Under the pieces are notes generated by a model that was not told where the DNA came from, ran no database searches, and saw only the letters and a program-made list of their open reading frames with translations. From positions 1 through 49,599 of the forward strand of contig NZ_JASJEB010000115.1 of assembly GCF_030064895.1 (NCBI RefSeq): DNA of 49,599 nt, written 5' to 3'. How positions within the stretch are numbered: the stretch's first letter is position 1; each line of letters opens with the position of its first letter. The DNA is from Crocosphaera sp. (GTDB lineage Bacteria; Cyanobacteriota; Cyanobacteriia; Cyanobacteriales; Microcystaceae). A program made the translations under genes and the position numbers. Below are positions 37,477-49,599 of the stretch, one piece after another.

Positions 37477-38145
37477 TTACAAAGTAACTTGACTGAGAAT
37501 GTATTGTAGGCGATCGTAATCATCTCGTAATAAAATGCTGAGGGTTCTTCCCACTTTTACTAACCAATCTTTATCACCTTTTCTCAAGAGATAAATATCT
37601 CGAATAGCAGCGGCCATTAGAGCATCTACTGGTGCATCTCTAACCTGTAATAAGATACGTAAAAATTCAACTTGCTCACTAAAATTCAGAATTTCTGCCG
37701 CTTCACAACGATAAACTCCTTGATGAATTTGAGGGGGACGGGGAGGCAAGTATTGATAAACTTTACCTAAGTTATGACCATTGCCATTTGCTGCATTTTG
37801 ATAAGTTTCAAAGCCAACAATAGTGGCTTTAAATTCTGTTTTCAACATAGCAAAAATTTGGGGTTGTTGTTCTCTTAACTCGCTTAAGGACAACCCTAAT
37901 GCTCTGGCACGATGTACAGAATCAATGGGAGTAGTGGTAGCATAGGTGACAACAGCTATTATTTTATTACCTGATTCTTCATCTAAAGATTTCAGCCAAC
38001 TGCCAAAGGGTGGCATCACCGGAAAACTTAGGTCTTCTGGTTCCAAACATTGGGCTAAAAATTGCGTGCTTGATGTTTCTATAACCTCGGCAATATGATC
38101 AGGGTGATGATCATCCGTGGCAAACTGAGGTAAAGGCAGTCTCAT
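37477..38145 (-). CDS. Conserved cyanobacterial HAS-barrel protein
   Basis: Protein of 222 residues with an N-terminal beta-barrel segment (HIAEVIETSSTQFLAQC; FGSWLKSL; NKIIAVVTYATTTPIDSVHRARALGLSLSELREQQPQI is too long to be a motif but shows the barrel-to-helix turn) and a helical C-terminus (EQVEFLRILLQV; DAPVDALMAAAIRDIYLL). HAS barrels occur in HerA and ATP-synthase subunits. Its start is one base after the ndhS stop codon, so the two are co-transcribed. A role with NDH-1 is inference. Confidence 0.7.
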   Translation of the reverse strand: MRLPLPQFATDDHHPDHIAEVIETSSTQFLAQCLEPEDLSFPVMPPFGSWLKSLDEESGNKIIAVVTYATTTPIDSVHRARALGLSLSELREQQPQIFAMLKTEFKATIVGFETYQNAANGNGHNLGKVYQYLPPRPPQIHQGVYRCEAAEILNFSEQVEFLRILLQVRDAPVDALMAAAIRDIYLLRKGDKDWLVKVGRTLSILLRDDYDRLQYILSQVTL

Positions 38146-38146
38146 A

Positions 38147-38317
38147 CTAAACAGGTTCGATTTCAGAAAGTTGAAAAGTAATTAATTTATCCCAGTTACC
38201 TCCTTCAAATAAGACAGCGGCCTTGCCATCACTGACTCGTTGTACTAAGCCTTCAAACTTATAATAGGTATCATTAGGGTTTGTTACTTTAACAGTGGTT
38301 CCTGGTAAAATTAGCAT
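38147..38317 (-). CDS. ndhS: NAD(P)H dehydrogenase (NDH-1) subunit S
   Basis: A 56-residue SH3-like protein: [20 protein letters not shown], the core YEGLVQRV-type [20 protein letters not shown] and the ending [16 protein letters not shown]. This matches NdhS (Ssl0352), the subunit that helps form the ferredoxin-binding site of photosynthetic NDH-1 (homologue of plant CRR31) and so supports cyclic electron flow. All conserved segments are intact. It is the promoter-proximal gene of a unit with the HAS-barrel gene one base downstream. Confidence 0.88.
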
Positions 38318-38493
38318 AATTTTTTGTAAGTATATACTGGGTTAAGTATAGCATATTATTTCTGTTGAATTCACCATTAATAATAAGCTTACTATTATTC
38401 CCTATTCCTAGATACCTGAGTTCTATATAAGTAAATTGATAGATAACTTGTCAAAATCGGAAATTTCAAACATTGATTATTTCCTTAACAAAG

Positions 38494-38534
38494 TTGCAAC
38501 CCCGAACTCCTAACTCAGGTTTAGATGTGCAACC
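38494..38534. repeat. Small inverted repeat at the end of the GT-like gene
   Basis: Ends GTTGCAAC and GTGCAAC flank CGAACTCCTAACTCAGG. The segment GGTTTAGATGTGCAAC matches 13 of 16 bases of the inverted end near 35876-35891, so it may be a shortened relative. The stop codon of the minus-strand gene (38521-38523) lies inside it. Confidence 0.45.
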
Positions 38535-39366
38535 AAGGAAGCAGTTGACGAGTAGTGGATCTGAACTTATACTTTAGTTGTTCACTGAAACTATTATAGT
38601 CCTTACCTCCATATTTTTTTCCTCCTGAATGACCAGAAACTCCGCAAAATTTTGGCTCATTTTTAAATCTTTTGATAATCTTTGCTTCTTTTTCTAGTGA
38701 GTGGATTATCCGATAATATTCAGGTTCGATGAAAAATCCCTTATTAGGATGTTTTTCAATAAACTGTAAATGTAAAGACTCAATGTACTTGCTATAAAAT
38801 TTCCAGCTAAATGCAATAAATCTGGTATCACAAAAAGGAGTAATATTATTTTGTTTAGATAAAGCATTTTTAAATTTATAACCTTGATCTTTATAATCGC
38901 AAATACAGTCAAAATTAGCAGGACAGGTTTCTAAAATTTGGGTAATATTCTCAAGATAAATGCGCCCTGTTAATTTCCCAAAGTGAGTTACAGTTTGAAT
39001 TAGCTTTGATTCTTTTAAGCCTTCTTGAATCAGCAAACATTCTCCAAATCCTTTTCCTTTAAAACCGTAACTGAGGTTATTATTGAGAGAAATAAAATCC
39101 ACTTGCTTTTGATAGGGATTATTTTTAGTTGCTTGTTCTAAAGCATTTAAGGAACTTCCAGAATTTTCAATAAAAATAATTTTTTTTAGTCTGGGATGAT
39201 TATGGAGATAATAATTTAAAGTATTCAAGTATTGCTGTTCTCTCACTGATTTCTCAGCAGGATAGACTCTTGGTAAATTATCCACACAGATGGTAGCTGT
39301 TAAAATCAAGGCAAAGTTGTTTTCTATATCTAATGGTTCATTAGCTTTTGAAGTAGAGTCTAACAT
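38521..39366 (-). CDS. Uncharacterised protein of the exopolysaccharide operon
   Basis: Protein of 281 residues that I do not recognise. An N-terminal segment LILTATICVD and the following alternation of strands and helices (KKIIFIENSGSSL; KQVDFISLNNNLSYGFKGKGFGE) resemble a GT-A type nucleotide-sugar fold, with later CDTRFIAFSWKFYSKYI. No D-x-D metal motif is clear. It is the last gene of a co-directional run with GT4, GT2 and polymerase genes and is likely a glycosyltransferase-like enzyme. Its last codons and stop codon lie in a repeat. Confidence 0.6.
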   Translation of the reverse strand: MLDSTSKANEPLDIENNFALILTATICVDNLPRVYPAEKSVREQQYLNTLNYYLHNHPRLKKIIFIENSGSSLNALEQATKNNPYQKQVDFISLNNNLSYGFKGKGFGECLLIQEGLKESKLIQTVTHFGKLTGRIYLENITQILETCPANFDCICDYKDQGYKFKNALSKQNNITPFCDTRFIAFSWKFYSKYIESLHLQFIEKHPNKGFFIEPEYYRIIHSLEKEAKIIKRFKNEPKFCGVSGHSGGKKYGGKDYNSFSEQLKYKFRSTTRQLLPWLHI

Positions 39367-39427
39367 TTTTACATCTCAGGATTTAATGGAAAATAACAAA
39401 TAATAGTGTAGCAGATTTTTGTTTTAT

Positions 39428-40603
39428 TTAGGTGATTTTAGCAAGGCTTTCATAAAAACTGAGTGATTTTTGTGCTAGGGCTTTATTTGTATAATAATTT
39501 AAAATTCTTTTATAGCCTTTTTCCGACAATTCACCAGCTAACTTTTTATTTAACATTAATCGAGTTAAACAATTTTGTAAAGCGTGATCATCTCCTTCAG
39601 GAAATATCAAACCGGCCTTTCCAATAACATTAGGAATTTCCCCAGAATTTGAACCAATCACAGGAACTTTACAAGCCATTGCTTCGATTAAAACATGACC
39701 AAACTGTTCTTTCCAACCCACAGCAGTTAAGGTTTTGAACTTATAAGTTGTTTCTGAAGGTAAGACTAAAACATTCATTAAGTTAATATATTTAGCAACT
39801 TGATCGTGAGCAACACTTTCCACAATTATTATTTGCTTGTTAATGCCATTTTTTTGACCTTCTTGAATAATTTTTTCTTTCAGTTCTCCTCTTCCTAATA
39901 AAAGAAATTTCCATTTTTTTTCTGGTAAAGATTGAATAGCTTTTAATAAAGTTAAAACACCTTTTTCTTCCACAAATCTTCCTACAAAACCAATGACAAA
40001 ATCTTCTTCTTTAATACCTAATTGATGAGATAAATCTGGTTGTTTTTGGGGACAAAATAAGTCTTCATTAACTCCCAATTGTGGCATAACTACGACATCT
40101 TGATCATAACCATGATCTCGAAGGATATCGGCTGCATCCTGATTTCCTGCCACTAAACCATCTGTATTACTTAAATTGTATCTTTCTAAATAAGAAACAG
40201 GAAATTTCGATTTATAGGGAAGATTCCACCAGGTGAAAAATACATTTTTTGCTTGCAAATTTAACCATTTATTCAGTGTTATTAATTGAGCATAAGCAAA
40301 AGATTTAACACCTTGTTCTACCTGGATAATGTGGGGTCTAAAATCATTCAATATTTTAATAATATCACTTCCAAAAGTCAGTAATCCCTGATTATTCTGA
40401 CTAAAATTGGAGATAGGAACAACTCGAAAATTGCCTTTATTCTGGGGTTTAGTCTCAATAATTTTATTTTGAACTCCTCCAGGTTTCCATTTTTTAGGAA
40501 CAATAATAGTAACTTCAATATCAGGATGAAGTTTTGCTAAAGTTTCAAATTTTTCACAATTAAGGTCAACAATATAAGTGTGACTAGCAACTAAGATTTT
40601 CAT
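39428..40603 (-). CDS. Family 4 glycosyltransferase
   Basis: GT-B enzyme of 391 residues. The N-terminal domain begins KILVASHTYIVDL; the C-terminal nucleotide-sugar domain has FVIGFVGRFVEEKGVLTLLK and the E-x7-E motif in EQFGHVLIEAMACKVPVIGS, followed by GEIPNVIG. These retain GT4 catalysis. It transfers a sugar onto a growing saccharide, donor unknown. It lies 29 bases after the GT2 gene in the same operon. Confidence 0.88.
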   Translation of the reverse strand: MKILVASHTYIVDLNCEKFETLAKLHPDIEVTIIVPKKWKPGGVQNKIIETKPQNKGNFRVVPISNFSQNNQGLLTFGSDIIKILNDFRPHIIQVEQGVKSFAYAQLITLNKWLNLQAKNVFFTWWNLPYKSKFPVSYLERYNLSNTDGLVAGNQDAADILRDHGYDQDVVVMPQLGVNEDLFCPQKQPDLSHQLGIKEEDFVIGFVGRFVEEKGVLTLLKAIQSLPEKKWKFLLLGRGELKEKIIQEGQKNGINKQIIIVESVAHDQVAKYINLMNVLVLPSETTYKFKTLTAVGWKEQFGHVLIEAMACKVPVIGSNSGEIPNVIGKAGLIFPEGDDHALQNCLTRLMLNKKLAGELSEKGYKRILNYYTNKALAQKSLSFYESLAKIT

Positions 40604-40632
40604 GAGCTTTTCGTGTTTTTTATTATTAAAAC

Positions 40633-41667
40633 TTAAGATACAGATTCAAGAGAATTATTAGGTTTTAATTGCTGATTGTAGCTATCATTTTTACTGTATA
40701 TTTGTCCATCGTCCCAGCGAGATAGAAAGGTAGTTTTAACAGCATCTATAAATCCCAAAATGTAAAAGAAGAAACGTACTATAATCTTAAGAGGAGATCC
40801 CCCTTTATTACAAGGAGGGTTCCCCAATACATGGCAGTCAAAAAGTTTTGTGTATAAACGGAATTGTTGTGGCGAATTTAAGTTTTTTAGTGCCATTAAA
40901 AAATGGTTGTGATAGAAAGTTATTTGATAGGAAAAAGAACGGGTACTTAGATCGTGACAACCACCAGTTTCTTCCCCTAAGTGAACCAAGTAAGCATCAG
41001 GTTCATACCAAATTTTATAACCTGTTTGACGTAAACGTAAACAAAAATCTGATTCTTCTCTAACAGCGTTTCCTCTAAATCTTTCATCGAACCAAATATT
41101 ATACTTAGTAAAAATTTCTCGTCTAAATGACATATTGCAACCGCGAGTTGAAATAACTTCTTGAGGTTTTGTAGTATGAACTAGATCGATATGATACCAA
41201 GCAATACCAGGGTCCATTGCTTCTGGGGGTAATAGTTCTATGGTATAAGGATTTTGAGAATCATTAATTTTTTCAGAATCAGCCAATTTCATTCTATCTA
41301 AAACCCTTCCAGCTACCGCTCCAACTTCTAAATTTTGTTGATAAACCTTTGCATGAGTATATAAGTAATTTTTGGGTAGTTCAACATCATCATCGATAAA
41401 GATAATAATCTCACCTTGAGAACGACGAACCCCATAATTTCTAGCTGCTGGTAAACTTGCCCAACTAACAGAAAACAACTTTATTTTATCAGTCTTAGCT
41501 AGGTTTTCTAGATAAGTTTGAATCTTAGGAGCATGGTTTTCTGTTTGATCAATTACCAAAATTTCCAGATGAGGATAATCCTGTTTAAGAACATCCTCTA
41601 AGGTATCTTTTAAAATTTGTTCTCGTCTATAGGTTGGGATAATCAGGGAAATGGAAGGATAAGACAT
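40633..41667 (-). CDS. Family 2 glycosyltransferase with an in-frame repeat insertion
   Basis: GT-A enzyme of 344 residues: ISLIIPTYRREQILKDTL at the N-terminus, the metal motif in IIIFIDDDVELP, the acceptor region TRGCNMSFRREIF and ESDFCLRLRQTGYKI. Near the C-terminus the peptide GNPPCNKGGSPL is encoded by an inverted repeat, a sign of a small palindrome inserted in frame. The extra residues follow the catalytic core, so activity is probably kept. It is preceded 19 bases upstream by the polymerase gene. Confidence 0.87.
   Translation of the reverse strand: MSYPSISLIIPTYRREQILKDTLEDVLKQDYPHLEILVIDQTENHAPKIQTYLENLAKTDKIKLFSVSWASLPAARNYGVRRSQGEIIIFIDDDVELPKNYLYTHAKVYQQNLEVGAVAGRVLDRMKLADSEKINDSQNPYTIELLPPEAMDPGIAWYHIDLVHTTKPQEVISTRGCNMSFRREIFTKYNIWFDERFRGNAVREESDFCLRLRQTGYKIWYEPDAYLVHLGEETGGCHDLSTRSFSYQITFYHNHFLMALKNLNSPQQFRLYTKLFDCHVLGNPPCNKGGSPLKIIVRFFFYILGFIDAVKTTFLSRWDDGQIYSKNDSYNQQLKPNNSLESVS
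40799..40819. repeat. Palindromic insertion inside the GT2 gene
   Basis: Arms CCCCCTT and AAGG-A-GGG around a TATTAC centre. It encodes NPPCNKGGSP on the minus strand. Short GC-rich palindromes of the form CCCCCTT...AAGGGGG are dispersed in cyanobacterial genomes and are known to sit inside genes in frame. Confidence 0.6.
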
Positions 41668-41686
41668 GATTTTTAAGGTTTATAAA

Positions 41687-43432
41687 TTAAATGGCGGATG
41701 GTTTTTTTCTATGAATTTTAACACGCTTTTTAAGTGCATCTTCGGCTGCTTTTTGGGCTTTAAGTTTAGCTTGTTCTTCTTTATCTATTACAGGAAGTTT
41801 CAAAAGAACTCCAGCAAACAACCAAAAATAAACACAGACTGGATCTGTATCCAGAGGATACCAGTAAGGAAAATAACTAATGATTAATAGAAATACCCAA
41901 AAACCAGAGGCAAAGCTTTTTAGACATTCATCTTTTAAACCACGGTATTCTTTGAAGGTTAAAAAACATAAATGACTGACAAAAATCATAAAAGCTATCA
42001 AACCAACAGGACCAATTTCAAAGAAAAGTTTAGGATGATAAGTTTCTACGAGAGAAACTTTTCCAAATATTCGGGTTGAGTTGGTAGCTGAACCTAAGCC
42101 ATGTCCTAAAATACCTCGTTGAGTTCTGAATGCAAAATCAAATTGTTCTTGAATGAATAGGTAAGGGGGAGAGGCATTCCATCGCCCGACAAAACTATCA
42201 ATTCGCTCTTGAATAAAGTCAGGATTGAAAAAAGAAAATCCTAGAAATAAGACCACAGATAAACCGACAGCAATGGGAATAAATCGTTTAAAATCAGCAA
42301 TTTTTCCAGTTAAAACTAGCATAATAATTAGCACAGCTGGAACCACAGCTAAGGCCAATCTTTGACCACAAATAACAGCATTAATAAAGACCATGGCCAT
42401 GCCAACCAAACCACAATTTCTCCAAAAGAATGCAGTATCACTAAAAGCAACCGAAAAACAAATAGCAGCATTTGCCACTAAAAACCACCCCCAGTGCCAA
42501 GGAGAAACAAAAGTTCCAGGCATACGTATTTGCCCCTGACTTGGAGAGTATAAAGCAGCACCTCCAACTAAACATTTTGCGTCTAGGTTTGGTTTAAACA
42601 ATTGTGATCCGCCTAAATGATTTGTGCCTTGACATCTTCCAGTTTTAAACATCCAAAATTGTATCAGTGCCAAGCCACAACAAATAATTGCCAACAACAC
42701 TAATAAACGGCCTAGAAACAATAACTGTTTTTTATCTTTGACTAAGTAATAACCACAAAAAATTAGAGGGATGTAACCAGCTAAAACTTTTAACCCTAAA
42801 AGTCCTTGGGCAAAGGGAATTGACTCTTTACAAGGGGTTACAATGACTCTTCCCTGCGCATTTAAAATAGGTTCTCCATTAGCATCACGCAATAATCTGT
42901 CGAACTCGGGAAGAGAATCACAAGTGGGTAAAAATTGCTTGAATCCATTAACTAAAAATAAAGTTAATAAGGCACAAGTAATTAGTAGTATCAAGGTAGT
43001 CAGAAGTGGTTTATAGACAATAATGCTTTGTCGTTTGCTTCTACAATACTGCATCAAACCCAAAAGTCCAGGAATATAAAAAGCATCTTTAGAAAGCTGG
43101 AATAGGGCATTACCACCACCAATCCAATAGGTTACAGTCCCACTAAATGGCATATAAATTAGAAAAGCCCACAAAGCTGTGCGGGGGTAATTGTAACACA
43201 TTACAAACAAAGGAATTAGTAACCCCACAGCGCCACCAATTTTAGGACTTACAGTAAAAGTCAGGGGAACACCAACAAGAATGGCAAAGAATAGGGAAAA
43301 GCCAATTAACCCCATTAGTTTTCTTCGACTTTCTCTAGCTTTACGTTTTTGTGCGAGTTTATCTTTGATGTCAACAGATGAATTATCTGGTTTCCGTTTT
43401 CTTGATTGTCTTTTTCTTAGAGAACGCGTCAT
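41687..43432 (-). CDS. O-antigen ligase/polymerase-like membrane protein (Wzy/WaaL type)
   Basis: Polytopic protein of 581 residues with about ten to twelve predicted helices and a large loop between residues about 270 and 330 (GRCQGTNHLGGSQLFKPN). Near the C-terminus, RTQRGILGHGLGSATNS and HPKLFFEIGPVGLIAFMIF match the O-antigen ligase family (Wzy_C). It starts with a very basic tail (RSLRKRQSRKRK). It probably polymerises or ligates the saccharide made by the downstream glycosyltransferases. First gene of the operon. Confidence 0.83.
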   Translation of the reverse strand: MTRSLRKRQSRKRKPDNSSVDIKDKLAQKRKARESRRKLMGLIGFSLFFAILVGVPLTFTVSPKIGGAVGLLIPLFVMCYNYPRTALWAFLIYMPFSGTVTYWIGGGNALFQLSKDAFYIPGLLGLMQYCRSKRQSIIVYKPLLTTLILLITCALLTLFLVNGFKQFLPTCDSLPEFDRLLRDANGEPILNAQGRVIVTPCKESIPFAQGLLGLKVLAGYIPLIFCGYYLVKDKKQLLFLGRLLVLLAIICCGLALIQFWMFKTGRCQGTNHLGGSQLFKPNLDAKCLVGGAALYSPSQGQIRMPGTFVSPWHWGWFLVANAAICFSVAFSDTAFFWRNCGLVGMAMVFINAVICGQRLALAVVPAVLIIMLVLTGKIADFKRFIPIAVGLSVVLFLGFSFFNPDFIQERIDSFVGRWNASPPYLFIQEQFDFAFRTQRGILGHGLGSATNSTRIFGKVSLVETYHPKLFFEIGPVGLIAFMIFVSHLCFLTFKEYRGLKDECLKSFASGFWVFLLIISYFPYWYPLDTDPVCVYFWLFAGVLLKLPVIDKEEQAKLKAQKAAEDALKKRVKIHRKKPSAI

Positions 43433-43593
43433 TAGATATGCAAAAGTTTCGACTGTCTTTATAAATTATACCCACTTATTTTAAAAATTCTTCTCTTTTT
43501 TCTGAGGATTTGAGATCACCTTATTTCGCGTCGAAGGATTACACTGATCTTATGATATGATGGTTAATTCTAAAGAGATTAAATTTTCTTGTT

Positions 43594-45393
43594 ATGTCTA
43601 TTTCACCCATTATTTTAACCTTAATTATTGTAGTATTAGCTTTAATTAGCTTTGTTTGTGAATTTTTTCCTGTGGATACTACAGCGATTGGCATTACAGT
43701 TTTATTGATATTATGTAAATTAGTTACCCCAGAAGAGGGAATTTCTGGATTTAGTAATTCAGCGACCATCACAGTGATGGCTATGTTTATTTTAAGTGCA
43801 GGAATTACAAGAACAGGGGGCTTACAAATTGTTAGAGATTTACTGTTTCAATTGGGGGGAAAAAGTTTAAAAAAGCAAATTGCGGCTCTGGGTATTATCG
43901 TGGGATTTATCAGTGCTTTTATTAATAATACTGCTGTTGTTGCTGTCTTTTTACCTATCATAGAAGGTTGGGGTAAAAAGCGTCAAATATCTTTATCTAA
44001 ATTACTAATTCCACTTTCTTATACGGCAATTTTAGGGGGAGTTCTTACTATTATTGGAACTTCTACTAATATTTTAGCTAGTGGTTTATCAGAAAAATTA
44101 GGTTATGGGGAATTTAGTATTTTTTTGATAACACCCATTGGCATTCCTGTATTTTTTATTGGCTTAATTTATTTAACTTTTATTGCTCCGAAAATTTTAC
44201 CCGATCGCAAATCTGTTAATAACAATGGTTTGGATGTTGATTATGAAATGAAAGACTATGTGAGTGAGATTATTATTACTCCTCGTTCTAGTTTAATTGG
44301 ACAAACTTTAAGAAAAAGTGGCATACAAAGAAAATTTGATGTTGATGTTCTAGAAATCATCCATAATGATATTCATTTTCCTCAACCTTTAGCCGATAAA
44401 ATTTTATCTTTGGGCGATATTTTATTAGTAAGAGGAAGAAAAGAAGATTTATTACAAATTAGAGATGAAAGGGGGGTGGATATTTTGGCAGATGTACAAT
44501 TTGATCAAGAAAAAATTGAAGAAGAACTAACTTTTGGAGAGGATAAAGTAGCTGAAGTTTTGATATTATCTAATTCTCGTTTAATTGGTTCTACTCTCAA
44601 AGATTTACGCTTTAGACAAAGATATAATGCGACAGTTATTGCTATTCGTCGAGGGGAAGAATTATTACGAGAAAGACTGGGAAAAGTACGCTTAAAATTT
44701 GGTGATTTATTGTTAGTACAAGGACCAAGAGAAAGCTTTATTGGATTACAAACAACCAGGGAATTATTGGTATTAGAAGAAAGAGACGTTGAAACTTTAA
44801 GACAAAATAAATCTTATATTGCGATCGCTATTGTTTTGGGGGTTGTTATTCTAGCTGCTTTGAAAATTTTACCTATTTTGGTCAGTAGTTTAGTGGGGGT
44901 AATGTTGATGATATTTACAGGATGTTTAAAACCAGGAGAAATTTATGGAGCAGTCCGTTGGGATATTATTTTTCTTTTAGCAGGATTAATTCCTTTAGGT
45001 ATTGCTATGGATACATCAGGAACTAATCAATTAATTGCTGAGTATATTGTCAATTTAGCTTCTTATTTACCTAACTATTTAGTTCTAGTTATTTTCTATT
45101 TGTTGACAGCTTTATTAACTGAAATTATCTCTAATAATGCTGCTGTTTTATTGATGTTACCTGTAGCTGCTGAAGTTGCTAAAAATCTCAATCTTAATCC
45201 TATCGCTTTCATATTAGCGGTTATGTTTGCTGCTTCCAACAGTTATATAACCCCCATTGGTTATCAAACAAATACAATGGTTTATGGACCAGGAGGTTAT
45301 CGCTTTTTAGACTTTACCCGTGTAGGACTTCCCCTAACCCTAATGTTTACTTTTATTGTTCCTTTATTAATTATTATTGTTTACGGACTGTGA
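43594..45393 (+). CDS. SLC13-family permease with two RCK_C (TrkA-C) domains
   Basis: Anion/sodium symporter-type protein of 599 residues. The first membrane block (1-205) includes AFINNTAVVAVFLPII and GTSTNILASG. Two TrkA_C domains follow (about 215-295 and 300-385; SLIGQTLRKSGIQRKFDVDV and RLIGSTLKDLRFRQRYNATV). A second membrane block (about 405-599) repeats the SNNAAVLLMLP and SNSYITPIGYQTN motifs. Such proteins carry sulfate, dicarboxylates or similar ions; the substrate is open. Confidence 0.88.
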   Translation: MSISPIILTLIIVVLALISFVCEFFPVDTTAIGITVLLILCKLVTPEEGISGFSNSATITVMAMFILSAGITRTGGLQIVRDLLFQLGGKSLKKQIAALGIIVGFISAFINNTAVVAVFLPIIEGWGKKRQISLSKLLIPLSYTAILGGVLTIIGTSTNILASGLSEKLGYGEFSIFLITPIGIPVFFIGLIYLTFIAPKILPDRKSVNNNGLDVDYEMKDYVSEIIITPRSSLIGQTLRKSGIQRKFDVDVLEIIHNDIHFPQPLADKILSLGDILLVRGRKEDLLQIRDERGVDILADVQFDQEKIEEELTFGEDKVAEVLILSNSRLIGSTLKDLRFRQRYNATVIAIRRGEELLRERLGKVRLKFGDLLLVQGPRESFIGLQTTRELLVLEERDVETLRQNKSYIAIAIVLGVVILAALKILPILVSSLVGVMLMIFTGCLKPGEIYGAVRWDIIFLLAGLIPLGIAMDTSGTNQLIAEYIVNLASYLPNYLVLVIFYLLTALLTEIISNNAAVLLMLPVAAEVAKNLNLNPIAFILAVMFAASNSYITPIGYQTNTMVYGPGGYRFLDFTRVGLPLTLMFTFIVPLLIIIVYGL

Positions 45394-45412
45394 GTTAATT
45401 TATAACCATTTG

Positions 45413-45512
45413 GTATTCAGCTAAGAGATAAAAAAGCAGCATTTGTATAATTCCAGTTACTTTCTAGAAACATATAAAATAAGCTAATATCTAATACCTG
45501 ATAGCTGAATAC
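45413..45512. repeat. Inverted repeat between the permease and the small exported gene
   Basis: Perfect 11-bp arms GTATTCAGCTA (45413-45423) and TAGCTGAATAC (45502-45512), 78 bases apart. It lies between convergent genes and could be either a remnant mobile element or part of a long-range transcript structure. Confidence 0.55.
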
Positions 45513-45522
45513 TGACATGAAT

Positions 45523-45888
45523 TTACCTATAATAACGATAGTATTGGGAATTAGGAACAACATGACGATTACGACCACGACCACGACCACGACCACGATA
45601 ACTTTGGTAGGGATTATAGTTATTATAGTAACCGCAATTGTAACAAGAACCCCGTTGATTTCTTTGAATGACAACTCTTTCTCGGAAGGGATAATTTCCC
45701 CTACCTCTATAATAAGAATTACCTCGAGAATAATTATTGCCTATTCTTCTATTTGGGGCAGTAATTGTGCGATGAATTCCAGGACTAGGACTGACACGCG
45801 TTCGGCGAGGATAAGCTAAGGTTTCTGTAGCTAAAACACCTAAAGATAGAGTAATTCCTAGAAATAAACTTAATGATTTATTGATCAT
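45523..45888 (-). CDS. Small exported Arg/Tyr/Gly-rich protein
   Basis: 121 residues: a signal peptide (MINKSLSLFLGITLSLGVLA, cleaved near ETLA-Y) and a mature part rich in Arg, Tyr, Asn and Gly, with CYNCGYY and the hexamer-encoded RGRGRGRGRN. The frame opens earlier at a TTG (45903), but ATG 45888 fits the signal peptide better. Strongly basic and probably disordered in the envelope. No family is recognised. The DNA carries CGACCA hexamer repeats at 45571-45598. Confidence 0.65.
   Translation of the reverse strand: MINKSLSLFLGITLSLGVLATETLAYPRRTRVSPSPGIHRTITAPNRRIGNNYSRGNSYYRGRGNYPFRERVVIQRNQRGSCYNCGYYNNYNPYQSYRGRGRGRGRNRHVVPNSQYYRYYR
45571..45598. repeat. CGACCA hexamer repeats
   Basis: Four to five tandem copies of CGACCA in the coding region of the small exported protein, encoding Arg-Gly pairs on the minus strand. 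A candidate length-variable tract that would keep the frame. Confidence 0.65.
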
Positions 45889-45993
45889 TGGTCTTGGCCT
45901 CAACTCTAATGAGAGAATCTTAATTTTTTTCCTAGATTCTTCTATCTCTATTTTACACCTTTTATTGCTAGGAGTTAAGAAAAAATTTACTCC

Positions 45994-46023
45994 TATAGCA
46001 ATCAGGTTTCAGTTGTGAGAAAA
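45994..46023. repeat. Second copy of the 30-base MITE terminus
   Basis: Matches 22247-22276 at 29 of 30 bases (begins TATAGCAATCAGGTTTCAGT and ends GAGAAAA). The other end and centre of the element are not found here, so this is a solo terminus or remnant upstream of cimA. Confidence 0.65.
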
Positions 46024-46168
46024 CCAGAAGGAGGATAAAACGAGTAACTTGTTCAATTATTTTAACCTATCTATAGAAATAATTAATCAGCCCGATCGCT
46101 TATCATGAGGTAATCTAGAAAATAGGACAAACTATCTTTCAACTATTTCATCAAACCAAAGTAATTCT

Positions 46169-47797
46169 ATGGGGACTGATAAGCGCATTTGGCTATACGA
46201 TACCACCCTCAGAGATGGGGCCCAACGGGAAGGAATATCCTTATCCTTAGAAGATAAACTGAAAATTGCCCGTCAACTGGATAAAATGGGTATTCCCTTC
46301 ATTGAAGGGGGTTGGCCAGGTGCAAACCCCAAAGATGTGCAGTTTTTCTGGAAATTACAAGAAGAACCTCTTACACAAGCAGAAGTTGTGGCCTTTTGTT
46401 CCACCCGTCGCCCCAATAAACTAGCAGCAGAAGACCCCCTCTTAAAAGCGATTTTAGCCGCCGGAACCCGTTGGGTGACCATTTTTGGTAAATCTTGGGA
46501 TTTGCACGTCACAGAAGGGCTTAAAACCACCCTAGAAGAAAATTTAAACATGATTGCCGATACCATTGAATATCTCCGCAGTCAGGGACGGCGTGTAATT
46601 TACGATGCAGAACATTGGTTTGATGGTTATCTGAATAACCCTGAATATGCCCTAAAAACACTAAAAACCGCCAAAGAAGCCGGTGCAGAATGGTTAGTGT
46701 TATGCGACACCAACGGGGGAACCTTACCCCACGATGTCACCCGTATTGTTAAAGATGTGGTGGTGGCCTTAGACATTCAACCCGACAATGATAGCCCCCA
46801 GTTAGGCATTCATACTCATAATGATTCAGGAACCGCCGTAGCCAACGGGTTAGCCGGTGTGGTAGAAGGGGTGAGAATGATCCAGGGAACCATCAACGGT
46901 TACGGAGAAAGGTGTGGTAATGCTAACTTATGCACTTTAATTCCTAATTTACAGTTAAAAATGGGTTATCACTGTTTAGCAGAAACCGAGTTAACCCAAC
47001 TGACAAAAACGAGCCGTTTGATCAGCGAAATGGTTAATTTAGCCCCGAATGATCACGCGCCTTTTGTGGGACGTTCTGCCTTTGCCCATAAGGGAGGTAT
47101 TCATGTGTCTGCGGTGCAGAAAAATCCTTTAACTTATGAACATATTAAACCAGAAAATATTGGCAATGAAAGGCGCATTGTTATCTCAGAAATGGCGGGT
47201 TTAAGTAATGTTTTATCTAAGGCCAAAACCTTCGGGATTGAGTTAAAGAAAGAAGATCCTGCTTGTCGGGAAATTTTGGCAAAAATTAAAGAATTAGAAC
47301 ACAAAGGCTATCAATTTGAAGTAGCAGAAGCGAGTTTTGAGCTATTAATGCGTCAAGCTTTAGGGCAAACAAAAAGCTTTTTTCAGTTACAAGGATTTCA
47401 AGTTCATTGTGATATGTTATATGGGGAAGGAATGCCTTACAGTAATGCTTTAGCTACTATTAAAGTAACGGTTAATGGGGAAGATAGATTAGAAGTAGCA
47501 GAAGGTAACGGGCCTGTTTCCGCTTTAGATAGTGCATTACGCAAAGCTTTAGTTAATTTTTACCCGGAAATTGCAAAATTTCATCTCACTGATTATAAGG
47601 TTAGAATTTTAGATGGAGGTGCCGGAACTTCAGCTAATACTCGGGTTTTAATTGAGTCTAGTAATGGTAATGAACGCTGGACAACTGTTGGGGTTTCTCC
47701 TAACATTTTAGAAGCTTCTTATCAAGCAGTGGTAGAAGGTATTGAATACGGTTTATTGTTAAAATCTAATGTTAAAAACATAGTTAATTCACTGTGA
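46169..47797 (+). CDS. cimA: Citramalate synthase (CimA type)
   Basis: Condenses acetyl-CoA and pyruvate to citramalate, feeding a threonine-independent isoleucine route known in Cyanothece. The DRE-TIM barrel begins WLYDTTLRDGAQREG with the metal-binding Asp; GIHTHNDSGTAVANGL and GYGERCGNANL supply the His ligands and the conserved cysteine. The C-terminal regulatory LeuA-dimer-type domain (about 395-535) has VHCDMLYGEGMPYSN. The 542-residue length matches the CimA subtype and not LeuA. It is the most GC-rich gene on the right side. Confidence 0.93.
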   Translation: MGTDKRIWLYDTTLRDGAQREGISLSLEDKLKIARQLDKMGIPFIEGGWPGANPKDVQFFWKLQEEPLTQAEVVAFCSTRRPNKLAAEDPLLKAILAAGTRWVTIFGKSWDLHVTEGLKTTLEENLNMIADTIEYLRSQGRRVIYDAEHWFDGYLNNPEYALKTLKTAKEAGAEWLVLCDTNGGTLPHDVTRIVKDVVVALDIQPDNDSPQLGIHTHNDSGTAVANGLAGVVEGVRMIQGTINGYGERCGNANLCTLIPNLQLKMGYHCLAETELTQLTKTSRLISEMVNLAPNDHAPFVGRSAFAHKGGIHVSAVQKNPLTYEHIKPENIGNERRIVISEMAGLSNVLSKAKTFGIELKKEDPACREILAKIKELEHKGYQFEVAEASFELLMRQALGQTKSFFQLQGFQVHCDMLYGEGMPYSNALATIKVTVNGEDRLEVAEGNGPVSALDSALRKALVNFYPEIAKFHLTDYKVRILDGGAGTSANTRVLIESSNGNERWTTVGVSPNILEASYQAVVEGIEYGLLLKSNVKNIVNSL

Positions 47798-47861
47798 ATA
47801 AAAACATAGATAATATTCTCGATTCAATGGTTCTGATAGCAACATATATCGCTTATGAAAC

Positions 47862-49599
47862 ATGAATGATCCTATTGATGAGTTAAGAGAAATCGCTCAA
47901 AAATATCAACTACAAGAACCTGAATTTCAGTATCAATGGAAGGAGGGTAAATGGCAGTGTACTTGTGTTATTATTTTTGAAGAGACTATAATAACAAAAA
48001 CCAAACTTGGACAAAAGAAAAATGAAGCCAGAAGAAAAGCAGTAAATTCTGTTTTACCTATTATTAGGAAACTTGTAACAATAGAAGAAGTTAATCAATC
48101 TGACTCATTACAGTCTAGAATCAAACAATGGTTCAAAGATTTTAGGCGAGATTGGAATCAAAAATCTAATATTGAAAATGCTGAAGCTATTGTCAATATA
48201 TTCGTTGGATTCATCGCACTAATCACAGCGATAAATGCGGCTAGTGTATATATTGATTCCCAAAGCAGACAAGATGAAATTGCCACAAGAAGAGATTTAT
48301 CAACTTATAAAGATTATGGGGAATATTTGACAACTTATCATGAGATTATTCAACCTAATATCAGTCAATTTTTGAATGATTTTGAGATTAACTATATTAG
48401 AATACCAGGTACAGAACATTCACCACAAAAAATTATTAGGTTAGGGAATATTAATGGAGAAAAAGAAGCAATTAAAATCAAAGAAAGTGAAAAAAATAAA
48501 TCAACTGAATTAAAAATATCTGAGGTAAAAAAATTGTCTATTGAAGAACAAATAAACATAATTAATAGCCAACTTAAGAAAGAATGTCAGGACACAAAGG
48601 AGCAAAAAAAATTTTGTTTTAAGATTATTCACAATAGTCTATCTAGCTCAATAGAACTTAAATATTATAATAATATTGAAAATGAAATTGATGAGAAGCA
48701 AATGGCTAAAATTGTTACGATTCATTTTGTAAATGATGAAGAACAATGTCAAAAACTACAAAAACCTATTCAAACACCTATTCAAACACAGGAAACTCAG
48801 TGTTTTCTTTTATATAAGGAAGCTGACAATTGTTTCTATGATGAACAAACAGGAGGTTATAGAAATAATGAGCAAAGAATAAAGATGATGAGGAAAATGA
48901 TAAATAAACCAAAAAATAAAGAAGGTTTATATCAATACGAAAGCTGTAAAATACCAAAAAGCAAAGAAGTGAAAACAGAAATAGATCGAATAGAAAAAAC
49001 TCAGAAAAGATACACTAATGCTTGTAAAGCACTCTTACCATATACAAAAACCAGAACTGGAATCGAAGTTTTTTATTCAGATATATTTCAAGATTATAGA
49101 GCAATTCATCTGTTTTATGAATCTTTAGGTTTGGGAATTAAAAATGATTTGATCCAATTTGATACAATTTTTAGTTTATTTACTTATCCTGCACTTTGGG
49201 AAGATGATAAGGTAACAGTTTGGGCTTCTTTTGATCCTTTTTTTGAACTAGAGAATTGTTTAAGAAATAATTGGTTTGAAGAGGATAAACCATTATTAGA
49301 TTTTTCAAGTCACTTTATTCAATTAGGTGCTAATTATCATTATGCTAGAGTTTTTAATAAATATAAAGAACTAAATTGTAGAAGATGGTGGCAATTTTGG
49401 AGATTTTTTATATTGCATGAAGGAGACACAAATAAATGTAGAAACTTACGAGAAAAGATACATTTAATAGAACATTTCGCCTTAAACAAGGGGTCTTCTT
49501 TTGAGTTATATAATGATCCGAGTATCTCGTTTAAAACAAAAAAACTATTGTCATTTATGAAAAAGAATTCTGCTGAAATTATTATTTTATTTTCAGTTA
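47862..49599 (+). CDS. dsRNA-binding-domain membrane protein, partial (3' end missing)
   Basis: Open frame from ATG 47862 to the window edge, at least 579 residues. Residues 1-70 fit a double-stranded-RNA-binding domain: DPIDELREIAQKYQLQEPEF, then KWQCTCVIIFEE and the RNA-contacting GQKKNEARRKAVNSVLPII. A basic linker (about 83-100) precedes one membrane helix (about 105-128, IVNIFVGFIALITAINAASV). The remainder is lysine-rich and cysteine-bearing, with a direct repeat PIQTPIQTQ and a later helical part YRAIHLFYESLGLGIKNDLI resembling DUF4760-type segments. The function is unknown. No good ribosome site is seen; cimA ends 64 bases upstream. Confidence 0.7.
   Translation, partial: MNDPIDELREIAQKYQLQEPEFQYQWKEGKWQCTCVIIFEETIITKTKLGQKKNEARRKAVNSVLPIIRKLVTIEEVNQSDSLQSRIKQWFKDFRRDWNQKSNIENAEAIVNIFVGFIALITAINAASVYIDSQSRQDEIATRRDLSTYKDYGEYLTTYHEIIQPNISQFLNDFEINYIRIPGTEHSPQKIIRLGNINGEKEAIKIKESEKNKSTELKISEVKKLSIEEQINIINSQLKKECQDTKEQKKFCFKIIHNSLSSSIELKYYNNIENEIDEKQMAKIVTIHFVNDEEQCQKLQKPIQTPIQTQETQCFLLYKEADNCFYDEQTGGYRNNEQRIKMMRKMINKPKNKEGLYQYESCKIPKSKEVKTEIDRIEKTQKRYTNACKALLPYTKTRTGIEVFYSDIFQDYRAIHLFYESLGLGIKNDLIQFDTIFSLFTYPALWEDDKVTVWASFDPFFELENCLRNNWFEEDKPLLDFSSHFIQLGANYHYARVFNKYKELNCRRWWQFWRFFILHEGDTNKCRNLREKIHLIEHFALNKGSSFELYNDPSISFKTKKLLSFMKKNSAEIIILFSV

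Follow-up and report, generated by a model that had tools for sequence, protein, structure and literature searches.

A gene at the right-hand end of a Crocosphaera contig encodes a membrane protein whose first 75 residues, as a structural model supports, form a domain of the double-stranded-RNA-binding (dsRBD) type. Behind it come two membrane helices with a large outer domain between them, whereas elsewhere in its branch the domain was found either stand-alone or C-terminal to an RNB domain. The source genome belongs to the genus of the marine cyanobacterium Crocosphaera watsonii WH 8501, and the gene is rare, chromosomal and lineage-restricted. Judged by its sequence, the product is a lineage-restricted protein built from a known domain, with a putative function. 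The window, meaning the whole 49,599-nucleotide stretch of DNA that we analysed, holds the features listed in Table 1.

Table 1. Features of the dsRBD membrane-protein gene and its upstream neighbour in the window
Feature	Coordinates	Strand	Evidence or remark
Whole gene in window	47862..49599	+	579 codons, without stop
dsRBD-type domain, residues 1–75	47862..48086	+	AlphaFold2; Foldseek against the PDB; profiles; alignments A1 and A8
Basic linker, residues 76–102, adjoining the membrane helix	48087..48167	+	Sequence
First membrane helix, residues 103–133	48168..48260	+	Kyte–Doolittle peak 2.17
Residues 134–570, probably outside the cytoplasm, ten cysteines	48261..49571	+	Cysteine positions; conserved core in alignment A3
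Second membrane helix, start only, cut by contig end	49572..49599	+	C96 continuation; WH 8501 hydrophobic peak
Upstream neighbour, HMGL-like/LeuA_dimer protein	46169..47797	+	Stop 64 bases before the dsRBD membrane-protein gene

Gene extent and membrane topology

The window is the whole of one contig (C184) of a 5.5-Mb genome in 188 contigs, and it is therefore the contig end that truncates the gene. The first-pass annotation had described a gene cut by the window edge, and we found a single frame that stays open from its ATG to the last base. We found the last 27 bases of C184 again at C96:5684–5710, and this overlap between the two contigs ruled out a gene that stops at the window edge. The frame goes on into C96 (L023, plus strand, from 5710) for 24 further codons, reading IVLLLMRFKIIRESLKKHLFFRKY, to a TAA stop, for a total of about 603 amino acids. 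The only relative in the named genome collection came from C. watsonii WH 8501 (contig NZ_AADV02000002.1), where the copy is broken and reads as two frames, one of 272 and one of 254 amino acids; the C96 continuation is similar to the C terminus of the second frame. The end of C96 (L023:5591–5800) contains a 99-base perfect inverted repeat with a 12-base loop, lying within the end of the dsRBD membrane-protein gene, which we took provisionally as an amplification or assembly fold-back. On the other strand of C96, the same gene tail is followed by 157 bases and then by a protein with an MS_channel_2nd domain (MscS-like). Extension to the right, which the annotation had proposed, yielded the stop and, if the fold-back is an artefact, the next gene.

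The annotation had also counted one membrane helix. This count holds inside the window, where hydrophobicity peaks once, but a second helix lies just past the edge, in the C96 continuation, and hydrophobicity in the second WH 8501 frame likewise peaks, at 2.53, in the equivalent position. Under the positive-inside rule, the basic flank of a membrane helix lies on the cytoplasmic side. Six lysines or arginines lie between residues 86 and 101, ahead of the first helix, and this linker suggests that the N terminus faces the cytoplasm. Together with basic residues after the second helix, the sequence suggests that both protein ends are cytoplasmic and that the approximately 435 residues between the two helices are probably outside. 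A relative of the outer part in another genome of the genus (G014) has four cysteines that align with cysteines of the window protein, which fits an oxidised outer domain. A structure model of the full-length protein, made from three rows, reached a pLDDT of 33 and was unusable, so we took nothing on the outer domain from it. The best PDB match of the outer-domain core (alignment A3) was Syn-F4-Link (9ugr, a form of a de novo protein; E 5.7e-4), which we rejected as compositional. We also rejected a Pfam match of the window protein to Auxin_canalis (E 1.4).

Fold and likeness of the head domain

AlphaFold2 modelling of residues 1–76 from two sequences gave a mean pLDDT of 88.3 and a pTM of 0.71. 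The predicted elements, a helix (4–14), three strands (21–27, 30–39 and 42–50) and a second helix (53–74), have the α-β-β-β-α order of a dsRBD. This is the fold for which the first-pass annotation had proposed structure prediction as a check, and the model bore out the helix 1, strands and KKNEAR segment that it had read from the letters. Foldseek against the PDB returned one match at E 0.001 or better, plant Dicer-like 4 (TM 0.86); other top matches were Loquacious-PD, the dsRBD–dsRNA complex 1di2 and Aquifex RNase III. YfiA-type ribosome factors and YcaO rank lower among the best 50 Foldseek matches listed.

Sequence profiles gave a more divided picture. Against Pfam dsrm (PF00035), which has a curated cut-off of 23 bits, the window protein alone gave no match. 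A scan of its genome with PF00035 at E 0.01 likewise gave none at this gene and matched two other places, a 284-amino-acid RNase III-like frame and a 625-amino-acid RNB-like frame. The WH 8501 orthologue, whose domain is 73% identical to that of the window protein, passed with 26.4 bits when its genome was scanned but, run as a single protein, fell narrowly short at 22.7; two stand-alone relatives fell over (L007, 23.9) and under (L019, 20.3) the cut-off. The dsrm search that the annotation had proposed was therefore negative for the window protein itself and positive for its orthologue in the genome scan. With the predicted fold, the orthologue's genome-scan score supports the annotation's claim of a membrane protein with a dsRBD at its N terminus. 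Compared with the dsrm family, the fold, the helix 1 Pro/Leu and the basic start of helix 2 are alike, whereas the window copy is below detection alone, has a short β1–β2 turn and sits N-terminal to a membrane protein.

Profiles built from cyanobacterial relatives did detect the domain. A profile of 13 RNB-labelled C-terminal dsRBD rows, built without membrane-protein rows and including two (L083, a 183-amino-acid frame, and L081) labelled RNB by similarity and frame only, scored the window protein at 34.7 bits, against 15.1 for the best of 5,000 shuffles. Profiles of three divergent RNB rows and of three stand-alone rows scored the domain at 26.4 and 67.7 bits, respectively, and none of 5,000 shuffles equalled either score. 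On these sequence comparisons, the RNB-derived profiles place the dsRBD likeness of the window protein beyond chance. A profile of eight RNase III dsRBDs alone missed the domain (5.7 bits, equalled by 24 of 5,000 shuffles); hhalign to RNase III dsRBDs gave probabilities of 94% with a wide family alignment and 84% with a narrow one. The family profile matched PDB sequences weakly (best E 0.031), and 10 of its 14 matches up to E 10, including the first eight, were dsRBD proteins (Staufen, TARBP2, HYL1 type and others); the other four were unrelated.

Canonical dsRBDs have a long β1–β2 loop with a GPxH motif that enters the minor groove, and a KKxAK motif at the start of helix 2. In the AlphaFold2 model the turn between strands 1 and 2 has two residues, so the long minor-groove loop is absent, and GPxH-type letters between these strands are absent from all 11 rows of alignment A1. 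We therefore filed the domain as a dsRBD-fold domain and not as a canonical RNA-binding dsRBD; loss of the loop weakens the case for RNA binding. At the KKxAK site, WH 8501 has KKEAK and the window protein KNEAR, which retains two of the three basic positions, plus an extra K52. The basic stretch at the start of helix 2 reads K52 K53 N54 E55 A56 R57 R58 K59; on the window side, K54 was lost, K52 was gained and K57 was replaced by arginine.

From these features we infer, tentatively and with rather less than even confidence, a membrane protein with both ends cytoplasmic whose dsRBD-type head tethers structured RNA, or a partner in RNA processing, to the membrane. The two-helix anchor would present the dsRBD-fold head to the cytoplasm, where the basic residues that open helix 2 (K52, K53, R57, R58 and K59) would hold structured RNA or the RNA-processing partner. 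Alternatively, a protein face of the head may hold another dsRBD protein. The large outer domain possibly controls the head. One serious rival, which we consider somewhat unlikely, is that the dsRBD fold was kept for protein–protein contact and docks an RNB exonuclease, RNase III or another copy of the protein itself to the membrane with no RNA contact. The two-residue turn and missing GPxH loop of the model agree with such docking, as do the loss of one canonical lysine in the window species and the fold matches, which include the interaction domains of DRB7.2:DRB4 (8igd, TM 0.81) and DHX29 on ribosomal complexes. However, helix 2 has kept its basic beginning, and among the adjoining genes inspected we recognised no dsRBD partner.

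Membrane anchoring of structured RNA is usually discussed in connection with enzymes of RNA decay, such as RNase E and RNase Y. If the domain binds RNA, this bacterial protein would have such an anchoring role. A more elaborate form of the tether, in our view quite unlikely, is a transmembrane receptor in which a signal read by the outer domain makes a dsRNA-binding cytoplasmic head take up or let go of structured RNA at the membrane. By analogy, and with equally low confidence, such a receptor would do with RNA what membrane-bound DNA-binding regulators do with DNA. Among the literature matches listed, we found no bacterial membrane protein with a dsRBD in titles and abstract openings; the matches mention a cyanobacterial HEPN–RNase III–dsRBD fusion (PMC3710099) and a membrane role for an RNA-decay enzyme, E. 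coli RNase E (PMC10989914).

Relatives and rate of change

In a tree of 29 domains, rooted at the midpoint and flagged by the program for long branches, the domains of the two membrane proteins form a pair (98/93), with which three stand-alone dsRBDs group (88/80, a value under the starred level). A branch with 96/93 support places the membrane-protein, stand-alone and 13 RNB domains on one side and eight RNase III domains with three divergent RNB rows on the other. The domain's nearest relatives are not in RNase III but among stand-alone dsRBD proteins and at the C terminus of RNB exoribonucleases. The stand-alone proteins, of 76–82 amino acids and from the same cyanobacterial family, are closest after the orthologue (38–41% identity) but have no membrane part; their genes were found in 2 of 50 family genomes, twice in G048 and once in G017. 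The cyanobacterial RNB domains share the same W-x-C-x-C strand. In RNB exoribonucleases, however, the dsRBD follows a catalytic RNB domain, and Pfam and NCBIfam recognised neither an RNB domain nor an RNase III catalytic domain in the window protein. With bacterial RNase III, the window protein has the dsRBD fold in common but not the catalytic domain.

The annotation had held that bacterial dsRBDs are nearly confined to RNase III, which is not so in this lineage. With the domain profile, we found RNB-type frames of 625–656 amino acids ending in a dsRBD in eight of the nine genus genomes, the RNB assignment by Pfam being limited to two proteins, L010 (G011) and L008 (another genus), with PF00773 in both. 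Profile A1 also matched the end of frames that look RNase III-like by eye in two distant genomes (L031 and L032). By eye, three RNB-like proteins from other cyanobacteria (L026, L027 on the minus strand, and L028; each at about positions 1–1728 of its locus) seem to have extra KK-A-K repeats of dsRBD-like character ahead of the dsRBD at their C terminus. In G018, an incomplete RNB-like stretch appears, also by eye, to be fused directly to a dsRBD in a 356-amino-acid frame (L101:1465–2535, minus strand).

At two separate places in G048 (L059:6606–7298 and L060:1145–1858), a DUF123 (PF01986) gene begins directly after a gene for a stand-alone 76-amino-acid dsRBD protein, which makes a two-gene unit possible. 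The WH 8501 stand-alone copy (L061) has, by eye, no adjoining DUF123 open reading frame on its 3.5-kb contig. Approximately 1.3 kb downstream of the second pair, a 1,764-amino-acid frame (L060:3182–8476) with a PNP_UDP_1 domain and an AAA_22/STAND-like NTPase region matches PADLOC candidate models.

The domains of the window protein and WH 8501 differ at 19 of 73 positions. Polarised with the three stand-alone rows as outgroup, 10 changes fall on the window side, three on the WH 8501 side and six are unassigned. Because the WH 8501 gene is split, the more canonical domain lies in the broken gene and the faster-changing one in the open gene. The dN/dS between the two species was 0.89 for the dsRBD (bootstrap 0.38–2.6), 0.17 for residues 76–140, spanning the linker and helix (0.04–0.68; the lowest of the parts measured), 0.55 for residues 141–275 (0.28–1.22) and 0.42 for residues 371–579 (0.24–0.80). 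Two neighbouring genes gave 0.09 and 0.11. Fast change of the head weakens the case for any conserved function, and neutral drift of the dsRBD is possible. A second serious rival to an RNA tether, which we regard as unlikely, is accordingly a decaying accessory gene that was functional in an ancestor, broke in WH 8501 and is drifting in the window species. The broken WH 8501 copy, the excess of window-side changes with a dN/dS near 1, and the presence of the membrane part in just three of the nine genus genomes speak for decay. By contrast, the window frame is open over its 579 codons plus the 24 on C96, and the values for residues 76–140 and 371–579 speak against decay.

Distribution and genomic site

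We detected the membrane part with a profile of the helix and the region after it (A4). The outer-part relative in G014 is a shorter frame without a dsRBD or a second helix, lying between AIM24 and Peptidase_S49 genes. In 386 genomes of the phylum, a sample without G014 and G017, profiles A3 and A4 matched nine and six genomes, respectively, at E 0.01 or better. We rejected these matches as chance because all but the window's own had E values of 9e-4 or weaker and five places had internal stops, leaving no convincing match beyond the genus genomes. In the searches made, the only other instance of a dsRBD with this membrane protein was the broken WH 8501 copy. A PF00035 census gave a match in 381 of the 386 genomes, and further cyanobacterial membrane proteins with a dsRBD may be among these matches.

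The upstream neighbour, which we take to be of the citramalate-synthase type, served to compare the site. This HMGL-like gene is present in eight of the nine genus genomes at 11 places, of which we compared 10, leaving out one partial copy in G011. Directly after it lies the dsRBD membrane-protein gene in the window genome and the broken version in WH 8501. In G014 it is followed immediately by the MscS-like gene (Pfam). A different open reading frame, with a hydrophobic N terminus by eye and no Pfam family over its cut-off, lies between the HMGL-like and MscS-like genes in G015 and G016, and other genes follow by eye in G010, G011 and G012. The slot after the HMGL-like gene is thus variable. 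The right flank aligned with the region before the MscS-like gene in G014, G015 and G016 with scores of 76, 83 and 83; the best of 200 shuffles reached 53, a control that refers to the G014 interval only, the G015 and G016 intervals being longer. The left flank (64 bases) aligned with WH 8501 with a score of 96, and with G014, G015 and G016 it scored 21, 29 and 20, within the value of up to 30 that 95% of shuffles reach. If the C96 fold-back is an artefact, these alignments give the order HMGL-like gene, dsRBD membrane-protein gene, MscS-like gene.

A variable slot between two conserved genes, filled in G015 and G016 by another frame with a hydrophobic N terminus, is also what an anti-phage membrane effector that senses phage double-stranded RNA might occupy, and the gene's patchy presence and the speed at which the putative sensor domain changes point the same way. 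The annotation had thought detection of phage double-stranded RNA conceivable; we consider it very improbable. PADLOC gave just Csm3 at E 0.035, with no stretch passing and thus no match beyond chance, and we found no match in phage, plasmid or viral-contig collections. A search of viral contigs with the dsRBD alignment gave 433 pattern matches, none of which was confirmed. By eye, the open reading frames of positions 38000–49599 and of C96 include no recognisable defence gene, and the immediate neighbours encode a metabolic protein on one side and a channel protein on the other.

The HMGL-like gene itself was matched four times, whole or in part, in G011 (L052, L056, L057 and L058). The same transposase-like open reading frame, recognised by eye, follows the match at three of these four places.
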